A stretch of 64,000 nt of DNA. Source: Nonlabens xylanidelens (GTDB lineage Bacteria; Bacteroidota; Bacteroidia; Flavobacteriales; Flavobacteriaceae). The notes below the pieces were generated by a model, which saw nothing but the letters and a program-made list of their open reading frames with translations, did not search any database and had not been told where the DNA came from. The stretch is taken from the NCBI RefSeq assembly GCF_002934445.1, contig NZ_PTJE01000001.1, forward strand, positions 682,001 to 746,000, in the 5' to 3' direction. Positions within the stretch are counted from its first letter, which is position 1. The number at the start of each line of letters is the position of its first letter. Shown in pieces: positions 4,907 to 60,261 of this stretch. The position numbers and the translations under genes are program-made.

Positions 4907-4922
4907 CGCTTTCGCGAAAGCG
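4907..4922. repeat. Iterated palindrome copy 1 (intergenic)
   Basis: Perfect copy of CGCTTTCGCGAAAGCG, 23 bp after the M16 operon stop and 25 bp before the terminator hairpin. The left flank is TTTTC and the right flank is AAATAA. Confidence 0.95.
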
Positions 4923-4947
4923 AAATAAATCTATTTAATAATAACTG

Positions 4948-4980
4948 AAAATGGCTTCTAGAGATAGAAGCCATTTTTTT
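4948..4980. terminator. Bidirectional rho-independent terminator
   Basis: A 13-bp perfect stem, AAAATGGCTTCTA / TAGAAGCCATTTT (4948-4960 / 4965-4977), with a GAGA loop, is followed by a T run and preceded by A's. It separates the M16 operon (plus) from the convergent DinB gene (minus) and should serve both. Confidence 0.9.
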
Positions 4981-4998
4981 ATGCAATTAATTAAGAAT

Positions 4999-5514
4999 CT
5001 ACCAACCACTAAAATTAGGTGGTGTGATGTCTTTAAGATTAAGATAAACCAGTAACTGACCACGGTGGTGTGTTACATGATCCTGGAGTAAATTCATGAG
5101 CTGCAATTTTGATTTAGGTCCAGCAAAGAATTTTACAATCTCTTTTAATTCCTCATCTGTCGTGGTACTTATGCTGTTGTGTGCGTCATTAAAAGTACGC
5201 TGTAGTAAATCAATGATTTGCTTTTTATTAAAGCTGTAATAATCTTGTGACGCTGTTTCTGTCTCGCGTCTTGAGAAATGAGAGCTATCTATCCAATTGA
5301 TATTACCTTGAATATGTAAGAGTTGTTCTTTAAAAGACTTTTGGCGTGCAGTAGGTTTATAATCATAAAACTCTTCTGGCATCGCCTCAGCAACAGCGAT
5401 AAGGTAATCGCGTGAGTTATTCCATTTTTCTAAAAAAGCGCCTTTAACGGTTGTTTGTTGTGCCATGCTAGCAGTACTTGTAAATAATATGAGAGCTATA
5501 ATTAATTTTTGCAT
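4999..5514 (-). CDS. Exported DinB-fold protein
   Basis: This 171-residue protein has a signal peptide (MQKLIIALILFTSTASMA|Q). The mature part fits the DinB/YfiT four-helix bundle family, with its metal-binding histidines at H67 (LLHIQGN) and H146/H150 in the DHVTHHRGQ segment of the last helix. DinB proteins are metal-dependent, often thiol-linked hydrolases or transferases; the substrate here is unknown. Export to the periplasm is inferred from the signal peptide. The gene is single, convergent with the M16 operon across a shared terminator. Confidence 0.8.
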   Translation of the reverse strand: MQKLIIALILFTSTASMAQQTTVKGAFLEKWNNSRDYLIAVAEAMPEEFYDYKPTARQKSFKEQLLHIQGNINWIDSSHFSRRETETASQDYYSFNKKQIIDLLQRTFNDAHNSISTTTDEELKEIVKFFAGPKSKLQLMNLLQDHVTHHRGQLLVYLNLKDITPPNFSGW

Positions 5515-5564
5515 TTCTAATTTTTAGTATGCTAAAAGTAATTATTTATTCTGAGCTAGATTAT

Positions 5565-6374
5565 TTAGGAATTAACTACACCAGCGATAATAGCTATTAT
5601 ACCTACCGCAAAGCAGTAGTAAGAGAAGTAATGAAGTTTTGCTTTACGTACTAAGGATATCATCCAGGTACAAGCTAGTAACCCTACTATAAACGCTGCA
5701 AAAAAGCCAACAATTAAAGGAGTTGTAGATACATTTTCTATAATAGTGTCACCTTTTACTACATCTAATAAATCCTTTGCGATTTTTCCAAAAATTAATG
5801 GAACAACCATTAAGAATGAAAATCGAGCGGCTTTTGCTCTATCATTACCTAGTAATACTGATGTAGAAATGGTTGCTCCACTTCTAGAGATACCTGGCAA
5901 CATAGCTATGGCTTGTGATGCTCCTATAATTAAGGCATCTTTCCAGCTGACACCTTTCTCTGTTTTTTTTGCGCGACCTGCTAGAAATAATAGTAAACCA
6001 GTTATAATTAACATGAAGCCTACAAGTATAATTCTACCTTCAAAGAGTTCTTCTAGTTGTTTCTCAAATGATAAACCTACTATAACGGCAGGTATCATAG
6101 AAAGAACAATTTTAGAAGCAAATTGAGTCTCTTCATTCCACTTAAAAGCAAAAATACCTTTAAGTAATTCTATAATATCTTTTCTGAAAACGATAATGGT
6201 ACTTAGCGCTGTGGCAAAATGTACTACCACTGTAAAGAGTAAATTCTCCTCTTTGTTTGCTATATCGGTTCCTAAAACGGCTTTCCCTAATTCTATGTGT
6301 CCACTAGAAGAAACAGGTAAAAACTCGGTAAGCCCTTGAATAACTCCTAAAACAAATGCGTCTATAGTCTCCAT
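5565..6374 (-). CDS. uppP: Undecaprenyl-diphosphatase UppP/BacA
   Basis: This enzyme dephosphorylates undecaprenyl diphosphate to regenerate the lipid carrier for peptidoglycan and other cell-wall polymers, and confers basal bacitracin tolerance. The protein is 269 residues, the usual length. It shows both family signatures: QGLTEFLPVSSSGH at residues 13-26 (catalytic Glu/His region) and PGISRSGATIS near residue 160. About eight membrane segments are visible. Its ATG follows directly on the stop codon of the DUF3098 gene, so the two are co-transcribed, with ftsX further upstream; this is a cell-envelope cluster familiar in Bacteroidetes. Confidence 0.95.
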   Translation of the reverse strand: METIDAFVLGVIQGLTEFLPVSSSGHIELGKAVLGTDIANKEENLLFTVVVHFATALSTIIVFRKDIIELLKGIFAFKWNEETQFASKIVLSMIPAVIVGLSFEKQLEELFEGRIILVGFMLIITGLLLFLAGRAKKTEKGVSWKDALIIGASQAIAMLPGISRSGATISTSVLLGNDRAKAARFSFLMVVPLIFGKIAKDLLDVVKGDTIIENVSTTPLIVGFFAAFIVGLLACTWMISLVRKAKLHYFSYYCFAVGIIAIIAGVVNS

Positions 6375-6692
6375 TTACTTTTTATCTGGATTTAAAAGAA
6401 TAGCATACATCTCGATCCCAAAACCTGCAAGAACCATCATAGGTGCAAGTCTAATGCGTCTCCATGAGAAAATATCTTCATTAAAAACAGCAGGGTCTTC
6501 ACTACCACCACCGGCCATAAGAGCAAATCCAGCAGCAATAACTACGAGTCCTATAACCATCCACAGATAGTTTTTCTTTTTGAAAACAAATTCAAAATTA
6601 GGCTTGATATTCTCTTCTACTTCGACAGCCTCTTGTCTATCAAGAGGTTTAGAAGCTTTATGGTAAGATTCTTTAATGATTCCTTTTTTCAT
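6375..6692 (-). CDS. DUF3098 family membrane protein
   Basis: This is a small 105-residue protein. A charged N-terminal half (about 1-38) is followed by two membrane helices (about 40-60 and 78-98) separated by a Gly/Ser-rich loop. This fits the Bacteroidetes DUF3098 family, commonly encoded between ftsX and uppP exactly as here. The frame is open nine codons further upstream (to 6719), but the MKKGIIKESY start is preferred. The function is unknown; its constant company suggests a role in envelope or division processes (inference). Confidence 0.75.
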   Translation of the reverse strand: MKKGIIKESYHKASKPLDRQEAVEVEENIKPNFEFVFKKKNYLWMVIGLVVIAAGFALMAGGGSEDPAVFNEDIFSWRRIRLAPMMVLAGFGIEMYAILLNPDKK

Positions 6693-6838
6693 TTTTATAA
6701 TATTGCCATTCCGCATCAATCGCAGAATCTGTTTATATTTTCTCAGTTTTCATTCCTCAATCCTAAAGGTTGAGAAGACTTTACTTTAATCTCTCCTTAT
6801 AGAAACCTGCCCTTTAATGCTAGGGAAAGGTTTCTTAC

Positions 6839-7717: not shown

Positions 7718-7918
7718 AAATTTTACAACGACTAGAATTGATTTACAAAAATAACAAAGTAACACACCTAGAACGATTTCCAGATAGTTATTTTATCTCA
7801 CAAACGGTATAACTTGTTTTTTAGTCTTTAATTATTGACAAAATGGGGTGGATATGGTACTCAATAACCATTTTCTATCTCAAAACTTATTTAATACCAC
7901 AATTCACAAACGCTTTAG

Positions 7919-7926
7919 TATTTTTG
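7919..7926 (+). promoter_or_regulatory. Putative -7 box of leuS
   Basis: TATTTTTG fits TAnnTTTG and lies 19 bp before the leuS ATG. No good TTTG is found 19 bases upstream, so only the -7 half is supported. Confidence 0.45.
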
Positions 7927-7945
7927 CTACTTACAAGAAGAAACT

Positions 7946-10840
7946 ATGTTACTCTACGATCACAAAGAAATAGAAGCAAAATGGCAAAAACATTGGGCTA
8001 CTAATAAGACTTTTAAAGCTACAAATAACTCTGATAAACCTAAATTCTATGCACTCGATATGTTTCCATATCCTAGTGGTGCTGGGCTACACGTAGGGCA
8101 TCCGTTAGGTTATATTGCTAGTGACATTGTGTCTCGTTATAAGCGTCACAAGGGTTTTAATGTCTTGCACCCTATGGGTTATGATAGTTTTGGACTACCT
8201 GCAGAGCAGTATGCGATACAGACAGGTCAACATCCTGCAGAGACTACTAAAACAAATATTGAAGGAGGAACTGATAAGTCTGGAAACAAAATTGCCGGAT
8301 ACCGCAATCAGATGGATCGCATCGGTTTTAGTTTTGATTGGGATCGTGAGGTAAGAACTTCTTCACCAGATTATTATAAATATACACAAGAGATTTTTAT
8401 CATGCTATTTGATAGTTGGTATGATAATGATGCAGATAAGGCGCAACCTATTAGTTTGTTAGAATCTCGCTTTCGCGAAAGCGGAACAAATAACATCAAC
8501 GCTGCCACAGAAGAAGATTTGAGACAATTCACAGCTGCAGAGTGGAACGCGTTTACAGAAAAAGAGCAACGGGAGATATTGCTTGATTATAGATTAACTT
8601 TTCTTGCAGATACGGAAGTAAACTGGTGTCCAGGACTAGGAACAGTTTTGGCAAATGATGAGATCGTAAACGGCGTTTCAGAACGTGGTGGACATCCTGT
8701 AGTGCGTAAAAAAATGCGTCAGTGGATGATGAGAATTAGCGCATTTGCAGAGCGTTTATTAACAGGTCTAGAAGGATTAGACTGGGCAGAATCTATCAAA
8801 GAAATACAACGCAACTGGATCGGGAAATCTGTAGGTGCGATGGTGTCTTTTCAATTAGATGACCATAAAATAGATGTATTTACAACGCGTCCAGATACCA
8901 TCTACGGAGTTACATTCATGACACTTGCTCCAGAGCATGAACTAGTAGATCAAATTACTACTGCGGCACAAAAAGACGCGGTAGAAGCTTACAAAAAAGC
9001 AACAGCGGCACGATCAGAAAGAGAACGCATGGCCGATGTAAAGACTATCTCTGGAGTGTTTACAGGAGCATATGCTACGCATCCATTAAGTGGTGAGCCT
9101 GTGCCGGTTTGGATAGGTGATTATGTGCTTGCAGGTTATGGAACTGGCGCTGTAATGGCAGTACCGTGCGGTGATGAGCGTGATTATGCATTTGCCAACT
9201 ACTTTGCAGGTCAGGAAGGAATGCCTGCTATCAAAAACATTTTTGATGGTGTGGATATATCTGAAGAGGCTTATGGAGCAAAAGATAAAACACCGCTTTG
9301 TAATAGTGATTTCTTAAACGGAATGAGTTATCAGACTGGTGCAATGGCAGCAGCGATTGAGAAATTAGAAGAAGTAGGATCTGGAAAAGGAAAAACCAAT
9401 TACAGATTGCGTGATGCGGTATTTTCTAGACAGCGTTATTGGGGTGAGCCATTCCCAGTATATTATAAGGACGGATTGCCACAAATGATAGATAGCAAGC
9501 ACTTGCCTATCGCATTACCAGAGGTAGATGAATATTTACCTACTGAAGATGGTGCGCCGCCATTAGGTCGTGCAACAACTTGGAGCTGGTGTACTCAAGA
9601 AAATAAAGTAGTTTCTAACGATGACGATCGCGATTGTGTATATCCACTAGAATTGAACACCATGCCAGGTTGGGCAGGTAGTTCTTGGTACATGTTCAGA
9701 TACATGGATGCTAACAATGAAAACGAAATGTTTTCTGCAGCAGCACAAGAATACTGGAATAACGTAGATCTATATATAGGTGGTAGCGAGCATGCGACAG
9801 GTCACTTGTTGTACAGTAGATTCTGGGTAAAGTTATTGCACGATCTAGGTAAAGTCACTGTAGAAGAACCGTTCCAAAAGATGATCAATCAAGGTATGAT
9901 TTTGGGTGAAAGCGCTTTTGTGAAGGAATTAGAGATTGAAGTTGATGGTAAGATTGAAAAACGATTTATTTCTCAAGGTGTAAAAGCTAAGGATTTAAAC
10001 ATCAAGTCGGGAAGAAAGCTTCATGCAGACGTTTCTTTAGTTAATCTTCAGAATGAATTGGATATGGAAGCTTTTAAAGCTTGGCGTCCAGATTATGCAT
10101 CTACAGAATTCATTACTGCTGAAGACGGAACATTCAAAGTCTCTAGAGAAGTAGAAAAAATGTCTAAGTCTAAATACAACGTCGTTAGTCCAGATGATAT
10201 TTGTGATCAGTATGGAGCAGATACCTTGCGTTTGTATGAGATGTTTCTAGGTCCGCTAGAACAAGCAAAACCATGGAATACTGCTGGTATTACAGGAGTT
10301 TATGGTTTTATGAAAAAACTATGGAAACTGTATCATAACGATGCTGGTTTTTCTGTTAGTGATGAAAAAGCATCACCAGATAGCATGAAAACCTTGCACA
10401 AGACCATTAAAAAGGTGCAAGATGATATTGAGAACTTCTCATTTAACACGAGTGTAAGTAGTTTTATGATTGCGGTAAATGAGTTAACTGCTCAAAAATG
10501 TAATAGTCGTGAAGTGTTAGAACCACTTGCTGTTCTTGTATCACCATATGCACCGCACATAGCCGAAGAATTATGGTCATTATTAGGTCATAAGGAATCT
10601 ATAAGTGAAGCGCCTTTCCCAGTGTTTGATGAAAAGCACTTGGTAGAAAGTAGTAAGACGTATCCTATTTCATTTAATGGTAAAATGAAATTTACACTAG
10701 ATTTACCGGTAGACGTTTCAAAAGATGAGTTGGAGAAAATGGTACTTGCAAATGAGAAAGTACAGCAACAATTAGAAGGAAAACAAATACGTAAAACGAT
10801 TATTGTACCTGGTAAGATTGTGAACTTTGTAGTAGGGTAG
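7946..10840 (+). CDS. leuS: Leucyl-tRNA synthetase
   Basis: This class I synthetase charges tRNA-Leu with leucine and edits mischarged tRNA. The protein is 964 residues. The HIGH motif appears as HVGH at 49-52 and KMSKS at 738-742. The CP1 editing domain lies between, with TTRPDTIYG (about 310-320) and the GTGAVMAVPCGDERD segment. An insert before the catalytic core resumes at about residue 160-210 (PISLLESRFRESGTNN) is long and variable, as in other Bacteroidetes. A copy of the iterated palindrome sits in that insert and encodes R175-F-R-E-S179. A terminator follows 20 bp after the stop. Confidence 0.97.
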   Translation: MLLYDHKEIEAKWQKHWATNKTFKATNNSDKPKFYALDMFPYPSGAGLHVGHPLGYIASDIVSRYKRHKGFNVLHPMGYDSFGLPAEQYAIQTGQHPAETTKTNIEGGTDKSGNKIAGYRNQMDRIGFSFDWDREVRTSSPDYYKYTQEIFIMLFDSWYDNDADKAQPISLLESRFRESGTNNINAATEEDLRQFTAAEWNAFTEKEQREILLDYRLTFLADTEVNWCPGLGTVLANDEIVNGVSERGGHPVVRKKMRQWMMRISAFAERLLTGLEGLDWAESIKEIQRNWIGKSVGAMVSFQLDDHKIDVFTTRPDTIYGVTFMTLAPEHELVDQITTAAQKDAVEAYKKATAARSERERMADVKTISGVFTGAYATHPLSGEPVPVWIGDYVLAGYGTGAVMAVPCGDERDYAFANYFAGQEGMPAIKNIFDGVDISEEAYGAKDKTPLCNSDFLNGMSYQTGAMAAAIEKLEEVGSGKGKTNYRLRDAVFSRQRYWGEPFPVYYKDGLPQMIDSKHLPIALPEVDEYLPTEDGAPPLGRATTWSWCTQENKVVSNDDDRDCVYPLELNTMPGWAGSSWYMFRYMDANNENEMFSAAAQEYWNNVDLYIGGSEHATGHLLYSRFWVKLLHDLGKVTVEEPFQKMINQGMILGESAFVKELEIEVDGKIEKRFISQGVKAKDLNIKSGRKLHADVSLVNLQNELDMEAFKAWRPDYASTEFITAEDGTFKVSREVEKMSKSKYNVVSPDDICDQYGADTLRLYEMFLGPLEQAKPWNTAGITGVYGFMKKLWKLYHNDAGFSVSDEKASPDSMKTLHKTIKKVQDDIENFSFNTSVSSFMIAVNELTAQKCNSREVLEPLAVLVSPYAPHIAEELWSLLGHKESISEAPFPVFDEKHLVESSKTYPISFNGKMKFTLDLPVDVSKDELEKMVLANEKVQQQLEGKQIRKTIIVPGKIVNFVVG
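8468..8483. repeat. Iterated palindrome copy 2 (inside leuS)
   Basis: Perfect CGCTTTCGCGAAAGCG starting on a codon boundary of leuS and read as RFRES, followed by GGA (Gly). It lies in a variable insert of the synthetase, away from the catalytic motifs. Confidence 0.95.
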
Positions 10841-10860
10841 TTTTTAAACATTTGATAATA

Positions 10861-10896
10861 AAAAAGGGAGTGGTGTATAACCACTCCCTTTTTTTT
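10861..10896 (+). terminator. leuS terminator
   Basis: A 14-bp perfect stem, AAAAAGGGAGTGGT / ACCACTCCCTTTTT (10861-10874 / 10880-10893), with a 5-nt loop and a continuing T run. Confidence 0.92.
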
Positions 10897-10927: not shown

Positions 10928-10943
10928 CCCTTTCGCGAAAGCG
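10928..10943. repeat. Iterated palindrome copy 3 (intergenic, one mismatch)
   Basis: CCCTTTCGCGAAAGCG: one base (second position C for G) breaks the left arm. It lies in the 233-bp gap between the leuS terminator and the T9SS cargo gene; I see no convincing promoter in the rest of that gap. Confidence 0.88.
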
Positions 10944-13914: not shown

Positions 13915-13930
13915 CGCTTTCGCGAAAGCG
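13915..13930. repeat. Iterated palindrome copy 4 (intergenic)
   Basis: Perfect CGCTTTCGCGAAAGCG, 25 bp after the preceding terminator and 77 bp before the -33 box of the cyoE promoter. Confidence 0.95.
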
Positions 13931-19011: not shown

Positions 19012-19239
19012 ATGAAAAAATTATTTATTCTAGTTATTGTTTTTAGTTTTCCCGCTTTCGCGAAAGCGCAATGCGCCATGTGCCGTGCCGTTATAGAAAG
19101 TTCTGGAGATACCGCAGCTGCTGAAGGGCTTAACAACGGAATCACCTATTTAATGGTTTTTCCATACTTGTTAGTAGGTGCGATTATTTACATGATTTAT
19201 AGAAATACTCAAAAGGGTTCTAAGGAGATGGAATCGTAA
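19012..19239 (+). CDS. Small exported membrane protein with CxxC, palindrome-encoded signal peptide end
   Basis: This 75-residue protein of unknown function ends the oxidase assembly operon, 9 bp after DUF420. It has a signal peptide (MKKLFILVIVFSFPAFAKA|Q), then CAMCRA giving a CxxC pair right after the predicted cleavage, and one membrane helix at about 42-64 with a charged tail. The CxxC and the neighbours suggest a metal or redox role in oxidase assembly (inference). The cleavage region AFAKA is encoded exactly by a copy of the iterated palindrome. Confidence 0.75.
   Translation: MKKLFILVIVFSFPAFAKAQCAMCRAVIESSGDTAAAEGLNNGITYLMVFPYLLVGAIIYMIYRNTQKGSKEMES
19053..19068. repeat. Iterated palindrome copy 5 (signal peptide of the small CxxC protein)
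   Basis: Perfect CGCTTTCGCGAAAGCG beginning 41 nt after the A of the ATG; read as A15-F-A-K-A19, followed by CAA (Q20), the predicted +1 residue. Confidence 0.95.
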
Positions 19240-23843: not shown

Positions 23844-25280
23844 ATGAAGAAGTTAATAATTTGCAGCATTGTTCTTTTAAGTTTCGCTTTCGCGAAAGCG
23901 CAATCGACAAAAATCTGGACCCTACAAGAATGTGTCCAGTATGCTATTGAGAATAATATAGATATAAAACAAGCAGACCTGAATACAGAGGTTGCAAAGT
24001 TAGATAAGAAAGATGCCCTAGGTTCTTTCTTGCCTTCACTTAATGCAAGTGCTAGTAATTCATGGAATACTGGTCTTACTCAAAATATTACTACAGGAGT
24101 TTTACAAACTCAAACCACTCGTAATTCTTCTTATGGAATTACGTCTGGAGTTACCTTGTTTGATGGTTGGGCAAATGTTTATAGATTACAAAGAGCAAAG
24201 ATGAATATTCTTGCTAGAGAATATAATTCTGAGTTAATAGAAGATAATACATTACTTAATGTTGCAAACTCTTACTTAAATGTTCTTTTTAATAAAGAGA
24301 ATTTAAAAAGACTAGAAACTCAACATATATTGACTAAGGCTCAAATAGATCGTACTTCACAACTAGTAGAAGCTGGTTCTTTACCTCGTGGAGACTTGTT
24401 AGAAATAGCAGCCACTTATGCAAATGAAGAGCAACAAATTATTGCTGCAACTAACAGTATTGTAAACTCAAGAATCGCTCTTGCACAAATTTTAAATTTA
24501 GATGACTTTACAAATTTTGATGTGCAAGATCCTAATTTAACTGATCCTAATGGTTTTGTGCTGGATAAAGCGGTGACAGATATTTATGAAAATGCACGCT
24601 CAAAAAGATTTGAAGTAAAAATAGCCGAACAAAATACATTACTGGCAGAGCAAGATTATAAAATTGCAAAGTCAGCTGTGTTACCTAGACTTTCAGCTTT
24701 CTTTAATTACAATACTAGAGAGTCGGGACAAGGTAATTTTAATTCTTTTTTAGATCCTAATGCACCTACAAGACAGATAGGTATTGTAGAAGGGACTAAC
24801 CAGAGTGTCGTTGCTCCTAACTTCACATCTACGGTAGGTAATCCAGATCCATTTTTTGATCAATTATCACGTAATGATGGTATCTCTTATGGATTAAGTC
24901 TTAGTGTACCTATTTTTAACGGTTGGTCTGTGAGCAATAATATTGCACGTAGTAAGATTAATGTAGAAAGTAATAAACTTACAGAAGACCAGACTAAACT
25001 GACTCTTAAACGTAATATTTATCAAGCATATAATGATGCTAAAGGTTCTAAGGCAGCTTATGAAAGTGCGTCCTCAGCATTAGAGGCTAGAGAACAAGCA
25101 TTTGAATACGCTAGAGAACGTTATAATGTAGGTCTTATGAATGCCTTTGACTTTAATCAGGCACAGACGGCACTTACTAATGCTCAAAGTTCTTTGTTAA
25201 GTAATAAATACGATTATATCTTCAAGCTAAAAGTATTGGAATTATTCAATGGTATAGCTCCAGAAGAATTAAAACTTTAA
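23844..25280 (+). CDS. TolC family outer-membrane efflux protein
   Basis: This 478-residue protein has a signal peptide ending AFAKA|Q. Two repeats of the outer-membrane efflux protein fold follow, with long helices and features such as WTLQECVQYAIENN at the mature start, RAKMNILAREYNSELIEDN, and the late ARERYNVGLMNAFDFNQAQTALTNAQ. It forms the outer-membrane duct for the adaptors encoded on both sides. The signal-peptide end is encoded by a palindrome copy identical in position and frame to that in the small CxxC gene (19012-19239). Confidence 0.93.
   Translation: MKKLIICSIVLLSFAFAKAQSTKIWTLQECVQYAIENNIDIKQADLNTEVAKLDKKDALGSFLPSLNASASNSWNTGLTQNITTGVLQTQTTRNSSYGITSGVTLFDGWANVYRLQRAKMNILAREYNSELIEDNTLLNVANSYLNVLFNKENLKRLETQHILTKAQIDRTSQLVEAGSLPRGDLLEIAATYANEEQQIIAATNSIVNSRIALAQILNLDDFTNFDVQDPNLTDPNGFVLDKAVTDIYENARSKRFEVKIAEQNTLLAEQDYKIAKSAVLPRLSAFFNYNTRESGQGNFNSFLDPNAPTRQIGIVEGTNQSVVAPNFTSTVGNPDPFFDQLSRNDGISYGLSLSVPIFNGWSVSNNIARSKINVESNKLTEDQTKLTLKRNIYQAYNDAKGSKAAYESASSALEAREQAFEYARERYNVGLMNAFDFNQAQTALTNAQSSLLSNKYDYIFKLKVLELFNGIAPEELKL
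23885..23900. repeat. Iterated palindrome copy 6 (signal peptide of TolC)
   Basis: Perfect CGCTTTCGCGAAAGCG beginning 41 nt after the A of the ATG; read as A15-F-A-K-A19 followed by CAA (Q20). The 24 bases around it (AGTTT before, CAA after) are identical to those in the porG-like gene. Confidence 0.95.
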
Positions 25281-26589: not shown

Positions 26590-27270
26590 ATGGCTTTAAT
26601 TTTATGTGTAGAAACTACCTCTACTAATTGTTCTGTTGCACTAGCGTCTGATAATGGAGGTTTTGATAATGAATATGGCATTGTCCACTGTCTAGATTTA
26701 ATAGAAGATAATAGTGATGGTTACAGCCATGGAGAACGACTGCATATTTACATAAATGAGATTTTAACACGTAATAATATCACTGCAAATGATCTAGACG
26801 GTATTGCTGTTAGTGAAGGTCCAGGTTCTTACACCGGTTTGCGTATAGGTGTGGCTACAGTAAAAGGATTGTGCTACGCTTTAAGCATACCTATGATGGC
26901 TGTGAGTACCTTAGAATCTTTAAGTAAACAAAATACCAGTTCAAATGTTTCTATCGCAATGCTAGATGCTAGAAGGATGGAGGTATATGCGGCTGTTTTT
27001 AAGGGTGTAGAACAAATAGAGCCAGTTAGTGCGGTTATATTAGATCAAGAAAGTTTTTCTCGCTTTCGCGAAAGCGGAACCGTAACATTCATCGGGACTG
27101 GTATTACTAAGTTCGAAGAGCTTATAAAAGAAGAGCAGCATACTTATACTACTTCTAATCCGACGGCACTTACCATGTGCGATCTAGCCATGGAAAAGTA
27201 TAAAAAAAGCGACACCGTAGATGTCGCTTATTTTGAACCGTTTTACCTTAAAGAATTTAAAGCAGGTTAG
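26590..27270 (+). CDS. tsaB: tRNA threonylcarbamoyladenosine biosynthesis protein TsaB
   Basis: TsaB is the non-catalytic ASKHA-fold scaffold that binds TsaD and TsaE to make t6A37 in tRNAs reading ANN codons. The 226-residue protein shows the first phosphate segment ILCVETTSTNCSVAL, the hallmark VSEGPGSYTGLRIGVATVKGLCYA (about residues 76-100) and MLDARRMEVYAAVF. A palindrome copy encodes R158-F-R-E-S162 in a loop before the FIGTGITKF strand. It lies at the end of the export operon and converges tightly (2 bp gap) with the dodecin gene. Confidence 0.95.
   Translation: MALILCVETTSTNCSVALASDNGGFDNEYGIVHCLDLIEDNSDGYSHGERLHIYINEILTRNNITANDLDGIAVSEGPGSYTGLRIGVATVKGLCYALSIPMMAVSTLESLSKQNTSSNVSIAMLDARRMEVYAAVFKGVEQIEPVSAVILDQESFSRFRESGTVTFIGTGITKFEELIKEEQHTYTTSNPTALTMCDLAMEKYKKSDTVDVAYFEPFYLKEFKAG
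27061..27076. repeat. Iterated palindrome copy 7 (inside tsaB)
   Basis: Perfect CGCTTTCGCGAAAGCG in the RFRES frame followed by GGA, exactly as in leuS (SRFRESGT in both proteins). Confidence 0.95.
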
Positions 27271-29838: not shown

Positions 29839-29854
29839 CGCTTTCGCGAAAGCG
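29839..29854. repeat. Iterated palindrome copy 8 (intergenic, full 22-bp form)
   Basis: Perfect 16-mer extended by TTC on the left and GAA on the right with the shared C/G, so the palindrome covers 22 bp (29836-29857). It follows a terminator by 4 bp. Confidence 0.95.
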
Positions 29855-33851: not shown

Positions 33852-34670
33852 TTACAATATCTCGTAGAGAATAGGACGAGAAGGTGCAGCATCATTTTCT
33901 ATAGGCGCTACTTGAAGATCTAGCATGTAAAAGCCGTCCTTTATCACATCAGGTACATAAATCAACTCGGTGATAGTAGCGTCTAGTCGTTGCTCACCAT
34001 TAAAATTCCAAAATTCTTTATGTGCCAGTAACGCACCATTATCTTTTTCTTTGTCCACACTAGGTAAATCTATGAGAATGTGTTGGATTCCGCTTTCGCG
34101 AAAGCGTAACATTAATCCAGCATCTACATACGGTGGGTTGCTATTAGAATAATTCTTGCTCTTATTACTTTCTGGATTAGGCATGGTACGCAAGATCACA
34201 GCCTTTATTCCAGCAGCGACAGGAGTTGTCACCGATTCATTAATGACTAAATCGCCATCTATTTCTTGTGGTGTTACACTTATCAACTGCGCTTTAAAGA
34301 AGGTCCCATCTAGTGCATTATTCACACTATGAAACTCTTCTGTAATATGCCCAATACATTCCGTATGTGTTCCATGACTATGCGGATTAAAATTAACGTC
34401 ATTAAAATTAGTCGAGCCACCCAATTTTACATTCCCCACATATCCATCTACCTCAACATGTTTAATAACAGGTTGATCGATGTACCACGCACCAACTCCA
34501 GCATTATTTTGTACCGCTAGACTAATATCATGTGGTTTTGAAAGATCTATAGATATTTGCTCTTTTTCTAGCTGTATGGTTGTTTTCATGAATGATATTT
34601 GTGGTTCAGACTTATTTTGTTCTACGCAACTAGTCAATACAATGGTAAGTAATAGAAAGTAATATTTCAT
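33852..34670 (-). CDS. Cyclase family (kynurenine formamidase-like) lipoprotein
   Basis: This 272-residue hydrolase of the cyclase/KynB fold is exported as a lipoprotein (LTSC lipobox, C15). Its metal site is HSHGTHTECIGH at residues 97-108, a variant of the family HxGTHxDxPxH motif with Glu for the usual Asp and without the Pro. Related enzymes hydrolyse N-formylkynurenine or other amides; the substrate here is unknown. A palindrome copy encodes R189-F-R-E-S193. Its ATG overlaps the stop of the upstream gene (ATGA), so translation is coupled. Confidence 0.85.
   Translation of the reverse strand: MKYYFLLLTIVLTSCVEQNKSEPQISFMKTTIQLEKEQISIDLSKPHDISLAVQNNAGVGAWYIDQPVIKHVEVDGYVGNVKLGGSTNFNDVNFNPHSHGTHTECIGHITEEFHSVNNALDGTFFKAQLISVTPQEIDGDLVINESVTTPVAAGIKAVILRTMPNPESNKSKNYSNSNPPYVDAGLMLRFRESGIQHILIDLPSVDKEKDNGALLAHKEFWNFNGEQRLDATITELIYVPDVIKDGFYMLDLQVAPIENDAAPSRPILYEIL
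34091..34106. repeat. Iterated palindrome copy 9 (inside the cyclase gene)
   Basis: Perfect CGCTTTCGCGAAAGCG in the RFRES frame of the minus-strand gene, again followed by Gly. Confidence 0.95.
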
Positions 34671-35116: not shown

Positions 35117-37957
35117 TTACTCCACTACTAACTCCTGACTAGCGTTTCCACCACTACCACTTAACTTAACAGAATAGACTCCTTTAGGCAAATAATACTT
35201 TCCGTTTTGTGCTTTTACTGGTCTGTTTTCTTTGTCAAATCTTTTCACAGCATATTCTCCTACAGTACCATTATAAGTGTAAAAGTTAATACCGATAGAA
35301 CTCATGCTAGCATCTTCAAAAATGGTTTTTCCATCTTTGTTGAGTACCTCTATCTTTACTTTTCCAGCCATAGGAGTGTAGTAAGAAAGTTTTATAGCAG
35401 GTTCTGGTCCTTTGCTCCACATAAATCCTTGTGATCCATATCTAGACGAGGCTCTGGTTTTATCGATTTTCGCGAAAGCGAAACCATCATTATTCATCAA
35501 TGCAAGTGCATCTAAATTTGCAGTATAAATAGAACGACCGTGCGTACCGATTAACAAGTCGTTTGCAACTGGTTGTATTTTCATATCGTGAACGGCAACT
35601 GGTGGCATACCGTTATTTAAAATGTCCCAATTTGCTCCACTGTCTGTGCTTATGTAACTACCATTATCTGTTCCTACAAAGAGAGTATTCTTACTTTTAG
35701 GATGCTCAATAATCACGTTTACAGGAGAGGTAGGAATGTTGTTGCCTATGTTTTCCCAGGTAGTTCCATAATCATCACTCATGAAAACGTAGGTAGTGAA
35801 ATCATCAAATCGATAACCGTTTAAGGTTACATAAACACGTTCTTTTTTATGTTGAGAAGCAACGACACGACTTATCCATAAGTTTGCCGGCCAGTTGCCT
35901 TTAACACTTTTCCAGGTAGCACCGCTATCTTGAGTAAGTTGTACTAAACCGTCATCTGAGCCTGTGTAAATTAATCCGAATTGAAACGGAGATTCACTAA
36001 TAGTCGTTATAGTTCCATAAGCTACATTTCCTTCTTTACCACCTTGGGTAAGGTCTGGTGAGATAGCGGTCCAGTCTGTACCATTGTTCATAGAACGGTG
36101 TAATTTATTGCTACCTAAATAAAGGATATCCTGATTATGTGAGCTTAATAGAATAGGAGTTTGCCAGTTGAAACGGTATGGAGATTCTCCTAATTCATGT
36201 TTAGGTTGTATGTAAGTGCGTTTTCCAGAATCGCGATTTATTCTATAATAGTTACCAAACTGGTATCCGGTATAAACGATGTCGCTATTTCTAGCGTCTA
36301 TTTGAACCTGCATACCATCGCCACCCATAATGGTTTCCCATGGGTAGTGACCTCTTTGTTGCCATGCTCTGTTTTCTCTTGCGTTGTGTGCGCCTACCCA
36401 AACGCCGTTATCTTGTAAACCACCATAAATATTATACGGTTTTTCTGTGTCGTAATTAATAGAGTAGAACTGACCTACACTAGGTGAATTGTTTTTGATC
36501 CACGTCTCACCGTCATCATAGGAGATGTTAAGTCCACCGTCGTTACCGTTAATAATATGACCACGTTTATTAGGATTTACCCATAAAGCATGATGGTCTG
36601 CATGTACGTTTTCTCTTGAAATGTTGATCCAGTTCTTACCGCCATCTACAGATTTAATAATCGGTACGCCCATAACGTAAAGGTGATTTACATCGCTAGG
36701 GTCTACACGTACTTGTGCAAAATAGTATCCATAGCTATAAAAAACGCCATCTATCTGTCCTTCATGAGTCTTATTCCATGTCTTACCACCATCATTAGAA
36801 CGATACAATTCGGCGCCCTTTACAGGTGTGTCAAAAAGCTGTGTGTTTGCCGTTTCAAGATATTTTGCAACATCCATAGGAGTAGCATCTCCTGCACGTA
36901 CCATGTTTTTTACGTTTTGGGCGCGGTATTTTTCTTGAAAACCGTTTTGTTTTAAAAAGGTATTTAGTTTTTTATCATCTAGTTGTAAGAAGTCCTCTTT
37001 GGACATCGATGTAAAATCGTTTTTAGAAAGTTGATTTCTAGTCGATTTTTTAGAATCTGTTTTTTGAGCAGGTCTTCTAAATTGGGAATCATGAATAGCG
37101 TATACGGTGTTCTCATCATAGACAGCTAGTCCTATGCGGCCTGTTCCACTTCCTACAGGAAAACCACTTGCCTCTGTAGTGATTTTAATCCAGTTTTTTC
37201 CAGCATCGGTACTTTTATAAATGGCACTTGCCGTTCCATTTCCATCAAAATTCCATGCTTTGCGATTTTTCTCCCAGCTGGCAGCATACATAATATTAAA
37301 ATTATCTGGTGCTGTCGCTAGATCTATAAAACCTGCAGTACTGGTTGCAAAAAGAGTTTTATCCCAAGTTGTACCACCATCTTGAGTAGTGTAAATACCA
37401 TGATTATCACTTACTGAATATAACGGACCAGTTACAGCAACGACTACATGGTCGGTATTTTTAGGATCTATTAAAATACGCCCTATATGTTGAGAGTCTG
37501 TAAGCATGGGCTTGCTCCATGTTTTACCCCAATCGGTAGATTTAAGTAAACCTATACCGGCATAACTACTACGGCTAGAGTTGTTTTCTCCTGTTCCTGC
37601 CCATATGGTTTTAGAAGTCCAGTCTGCAGCGATATCACCTAGATTAATTGTGCCAGCATTATCCATAATGGGAGTAAAGCTAGTACCGTTATTATTAGTA
37701 TACCATAAACCGCCACTGGCATATGCGACTAACATTTCTGTTGGGTCTGCTGGGTTAATGTCTATATCTACTACACGACCAGACATTACTGTAGGTCCTA
37801 TGTTTTTAAATTCTAGATTTTTAAAAGGAGAAGATTGCGACAGTTGCTCTTTTTTATCTAGACTACTTTGCACATCTGTACCGCTTGTGGCAACGGGATT
37901 TTGTGCAAAAGTGAAAATAGAAGAACTGATAAATAGAAAAGACAAGAGCTTTTTCAT
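35117..37957 (-). CDS. Secreted sortilin/BNR-repeat beta-propeller protein
   Basis: This 946-residue exported protein (signal peptide ending TFA|Q) carries many BNR/Asp-box repeats of the SxDxGxTW type (KSTDWGKTWS, YTTQDGGTTWDK, YKSTDAGKNWIK, YRSNDGGKTWNK, MSDDYGTTWE, STDSGANWD). They should build sortilin-like beta propellers. The C-terminal ~90 residues form a beta sandwich (AGKVKIEVLNKDGKTIFE) that lacks a clear T9SS tail. The function is unknown; related proteins are annotated as glycosyl hydrolase or sortilin-like. It heads the six-gene cluster running to 31073. A decayed palindrome copy encodes F826-AFAK-I831 before the C-terminal domain. Confidence 0.85.
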   Translation of the reverse strand: MKKLLSFLFISSSIFTFAQNPVATSGTDVQSSLDKKEQLSQSSPFKNLEFKNIGPTVMSGRVVDIDINPADPTEMLVAYASGGLWYTNNNGTSFTPIMDNAGTINLGDIAADWTSKTIWAGTGENNSSRSSYAGIGLLKSTDWGKTWSKPMLTDSQHIGRILIDPKNTDHVVVAVTGPLYSVSDNHGIYTTQDGGTTWDKTLFATSTAGFIDLATAPDNFNIMYAASWEKNRKAWNFDGNGTASAIYKSTDAGKNWIKITTEASGFPVGSGTGRIGLAVYDENTVYAIHDSQFRRPAQKTDSKKSTRNQLSKNDFTSMSKEDFLQLDDKKLNTFLKQNGFQEKYRAQNVKNMVRAGDATPMDVAKYLETANTQLFDTPVKGAELYRSNDGGKTWNKTHEGQIDGVFYSYGYYFAQVRVDPSDVNHLYVMGVPIIKSVDGGKNWINISRENVHADHHALWVNPNKRGHIINGNDGGLNISYDDGETWIKNNSPSVGQFYSINYDTEKPYNIYGGLQDNGVWVGAHNARENRAWQQRGHYPWETIMGGDGMQVQIDARNSDIVYTGYQFGNYYRINRDSGKRTYIQPKHELGESPYRFNWQTPILLSSHNQDILYLGSNKLHRSMNNGTDWTAISPDLTQGGKEGNVAYGTITTISESPFQFGLIYTGSDDGLVQLTQDSGATWKSVKGNWPANLWISRVVASQHKKERVYVTLNGYRFDDFTTYVFMSDDYGTTWENIGNNIPTSPVNVIIEHPKSKNTLFVGTDNGSYISTDSGANWDILNNGMPPVAVHDMKIQPVANDLLIGTHGRSIYTANLDALALMNNDGFAFAKIDKTRASSRYGSQGFMWSKGPEPAIKLSYYTPMAGKVKIEVLNKDGKTIFEDASMSSIGINFYTYNGTVGEYAVKRFDKENRPVKAQNGKYYLPKGVYSVKLSGSGGNASQELVVE
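35465..35480. repeat. Iterated palindrome copy 10 (decayed, inside the sortilin-like gene)
   Basis: GATTTTCGCGAAAGCG: the first three bases of the window-strand arm are changed (CGC to GAT), the rest is intact. On the coding strand it is read AFAKI, the same frame as in the signal peptides. Confidence 0.85.
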
Positions 37958-39232: not shown

Positions 39233-39248
39233 CGCTTTCGCGAAAGCG
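39233..39248. repeat. Iterated palindrome copy 11 (upstream of pepP)
   Basis: Perfect CGCTTTCGCGAAAGCG with TTC before and GTAT after, 41 bp before the pepP ATG. The rest of the gap from 39128 holds nothing else I can identify. Confidence 0.95.
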
Positions 39249-44866: not shown

Positions 44867-44882
44867 CGCTTTCGCGAAAGCG
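44867..44882. repeat. Iterated palindrome copy 12 (clpP-clpX gap)
   Basis: Perfect 16-mer within the full 22-bp form (44864-44885) and, uniquely here, inside a longer imperfect inverted repeat with outer arms TTGTGGT / ACCACAA (44857-44894). Confidence 0.95.
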
Positions 44883-50513: not shown

Positions 50514-51275
50514 TTATTTTACGAATTTCGTAACATATGTTAAGAATTCTTGCGGTTTCTCTGCATGAAGCCAGTGTCCTGCATTTTCTATTGTTTTTAG
50601 TTCCGCTTTCGCGAAAGCGTGCTCTATAATCATCACGTCACTGTCTAATATGTATCCAGACTTACCACCTCTTATAAAAAGGGTAGGTGTTTTTATAGGT
50701 GTAGTAATAGGGTCGTGAACACCGACTTTTTCTTGAGACTCACCTAAGACATCTAGATTAAATCGCCATCCATAACGACCTTTCTCAACGCGATAAAGAC
50801 TTTTTAACAAGAACTGACGTGTGCCGAAGTCAGAAATTACTTTTTCTAACATCTCGTCTGCATCATTGCGAGAGCTTACCTTATCAAAGTCAATGCTTTT
50901 TAGTCCATTTATAATATCGCTATGGTGTGGTGGGTATACTTTAGGGGCGATATCTGCTATTATCAATTTGTCTAAATAGCTTTCATTTTCTGCAGCAAAT
51001 CGCATGGCTACTTTACCACCCATGCTGTGTCCCAAAAGAATAATGTTTTTAAGCTCATGCTCATCACAATATTCTTTTATGTCTTGTGCCATTAATGAGT
51101 AGTTAAACTCGTCGCTATGTAAACTGCGTCCATGATTGCGCTGGTCGATTAGATGTACTTGAAAACCGTCTTCACTCCATTTGCGACCTAGAGTTTTCCA
51201 GTTATCTGCCATGCCTAAAAAGCCATGTAGGATTAAAAATGGCTGTCCTTCACCTAAAATTATAGAATGTAACAT
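50514..51275 (-). CDS. Alpha/beta hydrolase, YbfF-like esterase
   Basis: This 253-residue alpha/beta hydrolase has the oxyanion HGF (17-19), nucleophile elbow GHSMGG with S84 and the catalytic His in NAGHWLHAEKP near the C-terminus. The QRNHGRS segment and size fit the YbfF/ABHD11-type esterases with broad acyl-ester or acyl-CoA specificity. A palindrome copy encodes A220-F-A-K-A224, about 16 residues before the catalytic His region. The ATG shares one base with the pdxJ stop (TAATG), so the two genes are translationally coupled. Confidence 0.88.
   Translation of the reverse strand: MLHSIILGEGQPFLILHGFLGMADNWKTLGRKWSEDGFQVHLIDQRNHGRSLHSDEFNYSLMAQDIKEYCDEHELKNIILLGHSMGGKVAMRFAAENESYLDKLIIADIAPKVYPPHHSDIINGLKSIDFDKVSSRNDADEMLEKVISDFGTRQFLLKSLYRVEKGRYGWRFNLDVLGESQEKVGVHDPITTPIKTPTLFIRGGKSGYILDSDVMIIEHAFAKAELKTIENAGHWLHAEKPQEFLTYVTKFVK
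50604..50619. repeat. Iterated palindrome copy 13 (inside the hydrolase gene)
   Basis: Perfect CGCTTTCGCGAAAGCG in the AFAKA frame (residues 220-224, context EHAFAKAE). Confidence 0.95.
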
Positions 51276-53691: not shown

Positions 53692-53708
53692 CACGTTTTA
53701 AAAATTCC

Positions 53709-54395
53709 ATGCGGTTAGTTTTTTTATTTATTGTTTTTTTTAGTTTCGCTTTCGCGAAAGCGCAAACCTATGAGTTAGGTATTTTTGCAGGAACCTCAAA
53801 TGTGGTAGGTGATGTAGGAAGTACTCAGTACATTCAATTTAACGATGTCGCAATAGGTGGTGTTTTTAAATGGAACCGTAGTCCACGACACAGTTTTAGA
53901 GCTACCATTATATCTGCAAATATGGTAGGTGATGATAATGATAGCGACGATATTTCAAGAGATTTAAGAGGTTTAAACTATGATTACAGGATGCTAGAAG
54001 CGAGCGTAGGTATAGAGTATACCTTCTGGGATTGGGAATTATATTCAGGTAGACCACAATTTACACCCTATTTATATACTGGGCTTACTGCGTTTCATTA
54101 TGAGTTGTTTGCACTAAATAACACAAATGAGTTGGAAGAATACGGTGAAACAACAGATATTGCGGTGCCTATAATTTTTGGAGTTAAGATGTCTCTTACT
54201 CCTAAATTGATACTCGCAGCAGAGATAGGCGCTAGGTATACTTTTACAGATAATCTCGATGGAAGTAGTCCTGTGAGAAGTAAAGATTTTGACAATTTGA
54301 AATTTGGTAACTTAAATAACAATGACTGGTACGTGTTTAGTGGGGTGACTCTTACCTACACATTCGGTCGTAAACCTTGTTATTGTAACTTTTAA
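53709..54395 (+). CDS. porG: PorG-like DUF6089 outer-membrane protein (type IX secretion)
   Basis: This 228-residue protein has a signal peptide ending AFAKA|Q and a small outer-membrane beta barrel. Its size, the opening YELGIFAGTSNVVGDVGSTQYI, and its place directly before uppS, bamA and two skp genes match PorG of Porphyromonas, a T9SS outer-membrane protein that contacts the PorKN ring. The assignment rests on synteny and fold, so the symbol is probable. The signal-peptide end is encoded by the iterated palindrome. Confidence 0.75.
   Translation: MRLVFLFIVFFSFAFAKAQTYELGIFAGTSNVVGDVGSTQYIQFNDVAIGGVFKWNRSPRHSFRATIISANMVGDDNDSDDISRDLRGLNYDYRMLEASVGIEYTFWDWELYSGRPQFTPYLYTGLTAFHYELFALNNTNELEEYGETTDIAVPIIFGVKMSLTPKLILAAEIGARYTFTDNLDGSSPVRSKDFDNLKFGNLNNNDWYVFSGVTLTYTFGRKPCYCNF
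53747..53762. repeat. Iterated palindrome copy 14 (signal peptide of the PorG-like protein)
   Basis: Perfect CGCTTTCGCGAAAGCG beginning 38 nt after the A of the ATG; read A14-F-A-K-A18 followed by CAA (Q19), the same nucleotides as in tolC. Confidence 0.95.
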
Positions 54396-54397
54396 GT

Positions 54398-55132: not shown

Positions 55133-55133
55133 A

Positions 55134-57713: not shown

Positions 57714-57747
57714 ATATGGCATGATTATTTCTTTAAACAACTAGCTT

Positions 57748-58641: not shown

Positions 58642-58654
58642 TATAGGAACTCCT

Positions 58655-58662
58655 TATATTTG
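58655..58662 (+). promoter_or_regulatory. -7 box before the second skp gene
   Basis: TATATTTG, 53 bp before the ATG at 58716; no good -33 element at 19 bp. It suggests extra transcription of the last gene of the operon. Confidence 0.45.
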
Positions 58663-58715
58663 CAGCCGCCTCAGTAGGCTGATGGAATTAAAAATTGATA
58701 ACAATTAATAAAGAA

Positions 58716-59240
58716 ATGAAACAAGTAAAAACACTAATAGCAGTAATCGCATTTATCTTTGCAGGTATTAATCTAGGTCAGGCACAAGATGCGCAACCGA
58801 CTAAGGTATGTCACGTAGCTTCTCAATCATTAGTAGAGTCGTTACCTAGTGCTATTGCAGCAGATAAGCAATTAAGAAATCTTGCAAAAACTTATGAAAC
58901 TAAGTTAACTGCGATGGATAAAGAATTGAAAACTAAATATCAAAATGCACAAGAAGCTGCACCGCAAAGAACTCAAGAAGAAAACGAAAGAATTCTTGCA
59001 GAGCTTGCTGAAGGTCAGAAAAAATTAGAAGAGTATTACCAAAATTCTCAAACTGCAATGGGTCAAAAAAGAACGGACTTATTAAAGCCACTTTATAAGA
59101 AAGTAAGAGAGGCTATCTTTGCAGTTGCTAGAAGAAAAGGATTTGATTATGTACTTGATTCTACTACAGGAACTGGTATCATCATGGCAGACGGTTATGA
59201 TCTTACTAATGATGTAAAAGCAGAATTAGGAATTAAGTAA
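58716..59240 (+). CDS. Skp/OmpH-family periplasmic chaperone
   Basis: This 174-residue protein has a signal peptide (cleavage GQA|Q) and a complete Skp/OmpH domain: VCHVASQSLVESLPSAIAADKQLRNLAKTYETKL, a coiled coil of about 80 residues, and RKGFDYVLDSTTGTGIIMADGYDLTNDVKAEL. The ATG at 58716 is used instead of an upstream in-frame TTG at 58695. Tandem skp genes after bamA are common in Bacteroidetes. A strong terminator follows. Confidence 0.92.
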   Translation: MKQVKTLIAVIAFIFAGINLGQAQDAQPTKVCHVASQSLVESLPSAIAADKQLRNLAKTYETKLTAMDKELKTKYQNAQEAAPQRTQEENERILAELAEGQKKLEEYYQNSQTAMGQKRTDLLKPLYKKVREAIFAVARRKGFDYVLDSTTGTGIIMADGYDLTNDVKAELGIK

Positions 59241-59263
59241 TTCAATTCTATAAAACACATTTT

Positions 59264-59297
59264 AAAAAGCCGCTGTAGTCATACAGCGGCTTTTTAA
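59264..59297 (+). terminator. Terminator of the bamA-skp operon
   Basis: A 14-bp perfect stem, AAAAAGCCGCTGTA / TACAGCGGCTTTTT (59264-59277 / 59282-59295), with the loop GTCA. Confidence 0.93.
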
Positions 59298-59336
59298 TGG
59301 GCTGTAATTAATTACACCCATACTCTTTACCATAAA

Positions 59337-59375
59337 AAAAAATCCCAACTCATTTAATGAGTTGGGATTTTGCTT
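59337..59375 (-). terminator. Terminator of the cold-shock gene
   Basis: A near-perfect inverted repeat around 59355, AATCCCAACTCATT / AATGAGTTGGGATT, flanked by A's and T's on both sides, 20 bp after the cold-shock stop. It faces the previous terminator. Confidence 0.85.
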
Positions 59376-59392
59376 TTTCTATGGAATGAAAA

Positions 59393-59587
59393 TTAATCTA
59401 CTAGTCTTACATTAACTGCGTTCATTCCCTTTTTTCCTTCTTTTTCTTCATATTCTACGTGGTCACCTTCTCTTATCTCGTCGATAGTTCCTGTAACGTG
59501 TACAAAGCATTCTTGGTTAGTTCCTTCTTCAATGATGAATCCAAATCCTTTTGATTCATTAAAAAATTTTACAGTTCCTTGTTTCAT
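59393..59587 (-). CDS. Cold-shock domain protein
   Basis: This is a 64-residue single cold-shock domain (OB fold) that binds single-stranded RNA and DNA. RNP1 is KGFGFI (13-18) and RNP2 is CFVHV (27-31). The usual Asp/Val before FVH is Cys here. MKQGTVKFFNESKGFGFI is the standard opening. It is a single gene ending in its own terminator. Confidence 0.93.
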   Translation of the reverse strand: MKQGTVKFFNESKGFGFIIEEGTNQECFVHVTGTIDEIREGDHVEYEEKEGKKGMNAVNVRLVD

Positions 59588-59671
59588 GGTTTATTTTAAT
59601 AATAGTTTAGATCATAAAAGTAAAAACTTTCATCGTTTTAAAATTAAAAATGTAAAATTATTTTAAGTCTA

Positions 59672-60160
59672 TTAGGACTCTTTTGGAACACCATTTATGT
59701 AGACATGATTTCCTTTTACGCTTCTATCATACATGATTATACTTCCTGCAACTGCCACGTTTAGGCTTTTGGGAGTATTAAATTTTACTATATGATGTGA
59801 TTTTGTGATGGCCTCGTTAGTTAATCCATGGTCCTCTGCACCTAATAAGTAAACACAATTGCGTGGGTGTTTAAAATCTTCTAGCACCACAGCACTGTCA
59901 GTTAACTCTATTCCCACCACCATAGCGCCTTTAGGTAAATGACTGTAAAAATCTTCAAATGTTTTATAATGAAAATAAGGTATAGCACCTACAGCGTTGT
60001 GAGTGTCACAGGCTTGTTTTGCATAACGTTTACCTATGGTGTAAATGAAATTTGCTCCTAGATTTTGTGCCGTACGCCATAATACACCTAGATTTTCTGG
60101 TGTCTTGCCATGCATGATTCCTATTCCGTAATATCCTTGCTCTAGATTATCTATTTTCAT
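59672..60160 (-). CDS. TrmH/SpoU family RNA methyltransferase
   Basis: This 162-residue SPOUT methyltransferase has ENLGVLWRTAQNLGANFIYTIG as motif 1, YLLGAEDHGLTNEAI as motif 2 and LNVAVAGSIIMYD as motif 3. It is shorter than and not closely similar to the TrmH homologue at 29923-30465. The substrate RNA is unknown. A TAGATTTG -7 box ends four bases before the ATG, suggesting a leaderless transcript. Confidence 0.87.
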   Translation of the reverse strand: MKIDNLEQGYYGIGIMHGKTPENLGVLWRTAQNLGANFIYTIGKRYAKQACDTHNAVGAIPYFHYKTFEDFYSHLPKGAMVVGIELTDSAVVLEDFKHPRNCVYLLGAEDHGLTNEAITKSHHIVKFNTPKSLNVAVAGSIIMYDRSVKGNHVYINGVPKES

Positions 60161-60164
60161 TATG

Positions 60165-60172
60165 CAAATCTA
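60165..60172 (-). promoter_or_regulatory. -7 box abutting the second methyltransferase start
   Basis: On the minus strand TAGATTTG fits TAnnTTTG; four bases (CATA) separate it from the ATG at 60160. No good -33 box is seen. Confidence 0.5.
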
Positions 60173-60245
60173 TTAATTTAACTGATTATATGCAGTCTGT
60201 CCTCGCGCAGAGTTTTATGGACTCTTTATAGATGGATGTTGTATT

Positions 60246-60261
60246 CGCTTTCGCGAAAGCG
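60246..60261. repeat. Iterated palindrome copy 15 (intergenic)
   Basis: Perfect CGCTTTCGCGAAAGCG flanked by ATT and GAAT, between the divergent TrmH-family and histidine kinase genes. Confidence 0.95.

Follow-up and report, generated by a model that had tools for sequence, protein, structure and literature searches.

The question raised by this locus is what maintains a perfect 16-bp palindrome, CGCTTTCGCGAAAGCG, in 13 exact and two decayed copies across 64 kb of Nonlabens xylanidelens DNA (the window, G000:C1:682001-746000, where G000 denotes its source genome of 3,276,842 bp). We propose, with a probability of roughly 0.6, that CGCTTTCGCGAAAGCG and its conserved flanks may act as a palindromic DNA-uptake signal of Nonlabens and Dokdonia, an assignment made by analogy with known uptake sequences. 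It would be the first DNA-uptake signal in Bacteroidota that our searches of the open-licence literature could find. These searches returned nothing containing the 16-mer string CGCTTTCGCGAAAGCG and no palindromic flavobacterial uptake sequence; by title, nothing on the element was found for TTTCGCGAAA or for Dokdonia palindromes.

Copy number and fine structure of the palindrome

Fifteen copies with at most three mismatches lie in the window, compared with 0.11 expected by shuffling, and none of 100 shuffles reached 15. Genome-wide, G000 contains 579 exact copies of CGCTTTCGCGAAAGCG and none of the reversed control word; the Markov expectation is ~0.0001 per genome. The sequence-only reading had held that this is not a chance word and had named two outcomes that would speak against it, a count at chance level and copies restricted to the region; the genome-wide count shows neither. 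All 13 exact copies that it listed were confirmed in place, and the 15 iterations that it counted comprise these 13 perfect copies and two decayed ones.

Fine structure was analyzed in a 464-kb sample of G000 (14% of the genome, window included; G+C content 34.95%). The mismatch spectrum is steep, with 85, 21, 8, 3 and 8 copies at 0, 1, 2, 3 and 4 mismatches, respectively; perfect copies thus dominate, and 13 of the 21 one-mismatch copies differ at an outermost base. Nested words from TTCGCGAA up to the full 16-mer occur 106, 105, 103, 99 and 85 times. TTCGCGAA is therefore concentrated in exact sites (85/106), whereas 54 of 139 TCGCGA hexamers lie outside them.

Symmetric flanks

The conserved flanks described here, like the ruler-like spacing and the conservation at orthologous positions presented below, go beyond the content of the sequence-only reading. 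On both sides the core is bordered by conserved, G-poor, A-phased sequence in mirror image, which brings the element to ~50 bp in all. The outward trinucleotide is GAA in 106 and AGA in 61 of 330 cases. On the outward strand, G accounts for at most 7% between +18 and +33 (132 strictly intergenic flanks), and A peaks at +18, +21, +24 and +27. The core carries 34.1 bits of information and each 17-bp flank 4.6 bits (165 sites). Site by site, flank-to-flank pairing revealed no excess complementarity (6.02 of 17 positions versus 6.08 of 17 after shuffling; 215 sites), and an extended hairpin was rejected on this ground. The flanks are T-rich before the core and A-rich after it. Mirror-image flanks that lack mutual complementarity, together with this polarity, point to a putative DNA-recognition site of two-fold symmetry, not to a hairpin formed in RNA or a terminator.

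Spacing and genomic context

Across the first 100 sites listed for C1 of G000, the mean gap is 5143 bp with a coefficient of variation (CV) of 0.487, compared with 0.99 for random placement; none of 10,000 random placements was as even. Only one of the 99 gaps is shorter than 1 kb (17.7% expected), and the longest measures 12.3 kb (23.6 kb expected). Pooled stretches yielded CVs of 0.50 for G000, 0.49 for G002 (a second Nonlabens) and 0.65 for Dokdonia sinensis (G250), against 0.93–0.97 for nulls that preserve the coding/intergenic split. On the complete G002 chromosome, 20 stretches of 20 kb held two to six sites each (dispersion 0.32), with no regional bias towards origin or terminus in this test of low power. 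These data agree with the earlier view of the copies as evenly spread, genome-wide and not transposable-looking.

Coding DNA, which makes up 88–90% of the sequence, holds 47 of 85 sites in G000, 45 of 80 in G002 and 29 of 50 in D. sinensis; in the two sampled Nonlabens, ~44% of sites are intergenic compared with 11% of the DNA. Within genes the A-F-A-K-A frame is favoured (30/47, 26/45 and 20/29, respectively), and all three frames occur.

Conservation at orthologous positions

The following counts refer to aligned places only, and the comparisons share loci and are not independent (the site at 8468 alone contributes 17 exact matches in 19). Sites of G000 were exact in 46 of 49 aligned comparisons with relatives and carried one mismatch in three; three of the 22 relatives had no aligned site. 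Starting from the relatives' sites, 52 of 56 were exact; the remaining four all come from a single locus, seen in four related species. By comparison, only 7% of 4340 random 16-mers were identical. Among four close species, 142 of 161 sites were exact, ten had one mismatch, one had two, and eight had alignment gaps of one to two bases. Exact sites numbered 32 of 45 in intergenic DNA (control 16-mers, 483/1399) and 110 of 116 in coding DNA (control 16-mers, 4007/16162). Aligned sites are thus kept at orthologous positions far beyond the neighbouring DNA, and degeneration among these species consists mainly of small changes (point mutations, short gaps).

At loci L233-L236, the Nonlabens genome G001 showed an exact fraction of only 0.53, compared with 0.76–0.84 in three close relatives. 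This damage perhaps reflects relaxed maintenance or assembly error, the latter being possible because the assembly is 86% complete.

Across genera, sites were compared through targeted orthologues. Of the five exact sites at 7.9–27.9 kb of the window, D. sinensis shares those at 8468 and 23885, and G234, which represents one further genus, shares those at 13915 and 19053. A protein-level comparison with Dokdonia from random stretches provided nine usable proteins, none with sites.

Distribution and dialect

The 23 Nonlabens genomes searched contain 180–737 copies of CGCTTTCGCGAAAGCG each. In a survey of 397 Flavobacteriaceae genomes drawn from a larger group, 48 had at least one copy; more than 20 were found only in four Nonlabens, D. 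sinensis (630) and G234 (153), the other 42 carriers having 1–13. The 12-mer core matched in 104 of the 397 genomes, led by the same six (566–917 copies; 445 in G234), with at most 21 in any other. In 220 kb of G234, the 12-, 14- and 16-mers occur 29, 24 and 8 times, in line with 445 versus 153 copies of the 12- and 16-mer genome-wide. Its flanks are also weaker, and the G234 word reads as a looser 'dialect'.

Many of the few copies in other genera belong to a set of genes that recurs with its spacings conserved (L118-L127, L130); in L118 and L119, the recurring genes encode heavy-metal efflux functions, namely a CusA/CzcA-type resistance-nodulation-division protein, a TolC-type protein and a copper P-type ATPase.

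In 40-kb samples of ten other genera, one sample per genus, no 12–16-bp palindrome occurred three or more times; equal-sized controls from G000, D. sinensis and G234 all revealed the word. A general word count in other genera gave strong matches in G259 (down to 2e-20), of which two examined words fell within one repetitive gene. Over-represented non-palindromic words were seen in G145 (L312, L313; C1), for example TTTCAGAAA, in G352 (L314-L315) and in G219 (L326-L327). They are as strong as the G234 control, so non-palindromic signals may exist in these genera.

Phages and transferred DNA

The 16-mer is present in 41 viral stretches, eight of which have a G+C fraction of at least 0.48 and are seemingly unrelated. 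Viral gene content was assessed from 16 proteins of eight contigs. Capsid and portal proteins of the HK97 type were found in one contig, a Mu-type portal in two, an integrase in one and a depolymerase domain in one. Two more gave either no match or nothing beyond an AAA domain, and the last encodes a sugar transporter and may therefore be partly cellular. Head genes of the HK97 or Mu type are thus present in three of the eight. The integrase contig and the HK97 contig have common sites with identical flanks and probably belong to one temperate group. Nine low-GC viral contigs bear two to six exact sites each in the 12–28 kb examined. At low-GC viral loci the flanks resemble those of the host (fraction of A at +18, 0.54 versus 0.12 in GC-rich loci) and constitute the only link to the host. 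The isolated Nonlabens phages P12024S and P12024L, which we take to be lytic, have no copy in 35,000 bases each, where the host density predicts ~6, and no integrase is annotated in the stretches read. PMC6776037 describes a comparable pattern, in which temperate Pasteurellaceae phages accumulate the uptake signal sequence (USS) and large, likely lytic ones do not.

All 19 12-mers of genome G120 fall within one 78-kb segment (G120:C3:32332-110028), at a density close to one per 4 kb. This clustering suggests that the segment is an island derived from a former host of the Nonlabens/Dokdonia type.

Putative transformation machinery

ComEC was found in ten of ten genomes searched, G000 included, and DUF5689 in 22 of 23 Nonlabens. 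In G000, a 947-aa carboxypeptidase-regulatory-domain protein and a 486-aa DUF5689/choice-of-anchor-J protein are encoded by adjacent genes; the NCBIfam lipoprotein match of the latter is below its cut-off. The DUF5689 gene and its neighbour are present in G000, G001 and G002, and in G001, the genome with the more damaged sites, both are full-length. We know of no type-IV-pilus part in the Riemerella transformation machinery. According to PMC8459023, transformation of R. anatipestifer requires ComEC together with the products of two neighbouring genes, a DUF5689 protein and an outer-membrane protein. The G000 pair has the same domains, a match by domains rather than by sequence comparison. Riemerella columbina prefers its own DNA, and PMC7965970 reports no convincing signal; relatives thus have uptake specificity without an established signal.

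A proposed palindromic DNA-uptake signal

We propose that CGCTTTCGCGAAAGCG with its flanks would label extracellular DNA as 'self' and would be read by the natural-transformation machinery. A dimeric surface receptor of two-fold symmetry would bind DNA that contains the palindrome, such DNA would be imported preferentially, and homologous recombination would then spread and repair the copies. Such a drive would account for sites that recur roughly every 5 kb, remain nearly perfect and are each conserved in place. We infer that Nonlabens may be competent, that the palindrome may affect uptake and that a dimeric outer-membrane receptor may read it. The uptake reading fits the number of copies, their mismatch spectrum, their spacing and conservation, the dialect and the pattern among phages.

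To our knowledge, uptake sequences are established only in Pasteurellaceae and Neisseriaceae. According to PMC1939737 and PMC2397512, the Pasteurellaceae USS and the Neisseriaceae DNA uptake sequence (DUS) likewise occur in hundreds of near-perfect copies with a steep mismatch spectrum. They also show an excess in non-coding DNA while many lie in genes, conserved positions with many one-mismatch losses, and variant words in related taxa. The present element differs in its palindromic 16-bp core, in the symmetric flanks that extend it to ~50 bp, in belonging to Bacteroidota, and in occurring about once per 5 kb, compared with ~1 kb for the Haemophilus influenzae uptake sequence (PMC7811141); neisserial DUS spacing matches the size of conversion fragments (PMC2397512). 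Among the analogies offered by the sequence-only reading, DNA-uptake sequences fit best, and HIP1, parS/Noc and MatP are disfavoured for the reasons given below.

Several observations weigh against an uptake signal. Known uptake sequences are not palindromes (PMC1939737), although a non-palindromic word is a property of those sequences rather than of the mechanism. Copies stand at near-host density on phage contigs and on the 78-kb G120 cluster, and DUS are scarce in transferred DNA according to PMC2397512. Intergenic sites turn over: syntenic gaps comprised 24 shared and 32 discordant cases (14-mer; loci recur in comparisons), and site-bearing gaps were a median of 66 bp longer over the 32 discordant pairs, which implies that indels accompany some of the gains or losses. 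In comparisons across genera, sites coincide only in part. When the gene pair of G000 is compared with that of two Nonlabens using the same word (L357:5368-9681 versus L358 and L359), the DUF5689 protein is 37–39% identical and its neighbour 68–83%; because the lipoprotein diverges although the word is invariant, it is a poor candidate for the reader of the word. DUF5689 is also found in G023, where the word is absent, and PMC8459023 describes the pair as widespread in the family. Our confidence is held at the stated level by the palindromicity, the density on phage contigs and the transferred cluster, the intergenic turnover and the putative nature of the uptake role. The fuller proposal falls somewhat short of an even chance: that the element, the first uptake signal of Bacteroidota and the first of palindromic form, is a ~50-bp two-fold label read by a dimeric surface receptor of the flavobacterial transformation machinery, and has spread sites at ~5-kb intervals over the chromosomes of Nonlabens, Dokdonia and one further genus, and to their temperate phages.

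Alternative explanations

The main rival is a chromosome-organising site, at which a homodimeric nucleoid or domain protein would bind the palindrome about every 5 kb and shape or anchor the chromosome. We consider it unlikely, although the ~50-bp two-fold symmetry, the ruler-like spacing, the conservation of individual sites where aligned and the copies on some phage contigs are compatible with it. The motifs of parS, Noc (the Noc-binding site, NBS) and MatP (matS) are similarly palindromic homodimer-type sites of similar length. However, the copies of CGCTTTCGCGAAAGCG far exceed the numbers known for those systems, and their absence of regional bias in the 20 G002 stretches speaks against a MatP-like site. 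A parS/Noc-like site, also suggested initially, is disfavoured by the presence of one ParB, with no additional member of its family, in 20 of 23 Nonlabens and by separate canonical parS in six of six searched, with one or two cores each. The patchy taxonomic range and the intergenic sites that are gained or lost outright from one species to another argue against an architectural role too, and no candidate protein emerged from a search that covered ParB only. In G000, two canonical parS cores are located ~1.89 kb apart (G000:C1:557962-559868); this pair spacing recurs in five of the six Nonlabens, the sixth having one copy, and no canonical core was found in D. sinensis or G234. Extra ParB-domain matches in G014, G018 and G019 reside in open frames of ~600 aa, perhaps carried by plasmids or by mobile elements.

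A Chi-like signal acting in both directions for recombination by an AddAB-type enzyme is improbable. The outward half CGAAAGCGG contains AGCGG, which is the Chi sequence of Bacillus subtilis; the dispersed sites have a density of the same order as Escherichia coli Chi, the 5′ flanks are rich in G and T, and a gene for an AddA-resembling UvrD-type helicase (Pfam UvrD domains) lies at L357:13090-16245. In masked G000, AGCGG, AAGCGG, AAAGCGG and GAAAGCGG are in 1.1–2-fold excess, and in G002 AGCGG to AAAGCGG are in 1.3–1.5-fold excess. An excess of at most about two-fold is small beside the ~0.0001 expected for the full palindrome, and the other G000 half-words are at or below expectation or close to it (GAAGCGG, 15 versus 15.4; GAAAGCG, 41 versus 36.9; CGAAAGCG, 0 versus 4.0). 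Moreover, Chi is read on one strand and does not need the whole palindrome; here it is the full symmetric site that is enriched.

Marginally less probable still is a HIP1-like methylation mark, in which TCGCGA or CGCG within the palindrome would be modified in a housekeeping role. Cyanobacterial HIP1 (GCGATCGC) is likewise a highly iterated palindrome (PMC4390886), and the concentration of TTCGCGAA in the sites is in keeping with such a mark. The present element is longer, flanked, evenly spaced and, compared with HIP1, without a conserved C5-methyltransferase partner: no PF00145 match was found in G000 or in eight others of 22 genomes, in a search confined to the C5 class of methyltransferases. 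The many TCGCGA hexamers outside exact sites and the long conserved flanks are also unexpected for this mark. The Noc/ParB, C5-methylase and Chi half-site readings were rejected on the single ParB, the PF00145 gaps and the low half-word excess, respectively.

Least probable is a mobile palindromic repeat (of the repetitive extragenic palindromic or miniature inverted-repeat transposable element type) or a terminator family, which the intergenic enrichment and the longer site-bearing gaps would suit, since more than half of the sites are in coding DNA in all three frames, spacing is even, the sites of close species that are not exact mostly differ by small changes, and a Rho-independent terminator was rejected on the reversed flank polarity, which comes without flank complementarity, and on the 10 of 37 classified intergenic G000 sites between divergent genes.

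Copies in the window

The gene calls used here are crude script calls (ATG starts, at least 60 aa).

Copies of the palindrome in the 64-kb window, with their context (ORF, open reading frame) and the state of the corresponding position in other genomes
Copy	Coordinates	Context	Corresponding position in other genomes
Exact	4907..4922	between convergent genes 2820-4883 (+) and 4999-5514 (-)	copy in the orthologous gap of both relatives passing the synteny filter there (G002, G013)
Exact	8468..8483	within ORF 7946-10840 (+)	exact in 17 of 19 aligned Nonlabens relatives, one mismatch in 2, 3 relatives unaligned; exact at same position in G250 (16/16; flanks 59% identical); orthologous gene in G234 without copy
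Decayed, 1 mismatch (next-to-outermost base)	10928..10943	intergenic	
Exact	13915..13930	intergenic	copy in same intergenic region of G234, none in G250
Exact	19053..19068	within small ORF 19012-19239 (+)	CGCTTTCGCGAAAGCC (one mismatch) at nearly same spot in G234; none in G250
Exact	23885..23900	5′ end of ORF 23844-25280 (real start may be further downstream)	copy in corresponding gene gap of G250; none in G234
Exact	27061..27076	within ORF 26590-27270 (+)	copy in same gene in G234 and just after that gene in G250; positions differ
Exact	29839..29854	intergenic	present in G002; absent without relic in four related species
Exact	34091..34106	within ORF 33852-34670 (-)	
Decayed, 3 mismatches	35465..35480	within ORF 35117-37957 (-)	GACTTTCGCGAAAGCG in G002
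Exact	39233..39248	intergenic	
Exact	44867..44882	intergenic	copy in orthologous gap of 3 of 3 relatives passing the synteny filter; corresponding gap of an uncultured Dokdonia (L050) also contains a copy
Exact	50604..50619	near 3′ end of ORF 50514-51275 (-)	
Exact	53747..53762	5′ end of ORF 53709-54395 (+)	
Exact	60246..60261	between divergent genes	

Implications

If the element were architectural instead, it would represent a chromosome ruler with few parallels. If the uptake reading is true, a palindromic system that arose independently in a different phylum would allow comparative tests of how self-recognition in bacterial DNA exchange evolves, and the element would offer a handle on the poorly known uptake machinery of flavobacteria. 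At 16 bp, the word also serves as a tag of provenance by which gene flow and the hosts of phages can be traced.

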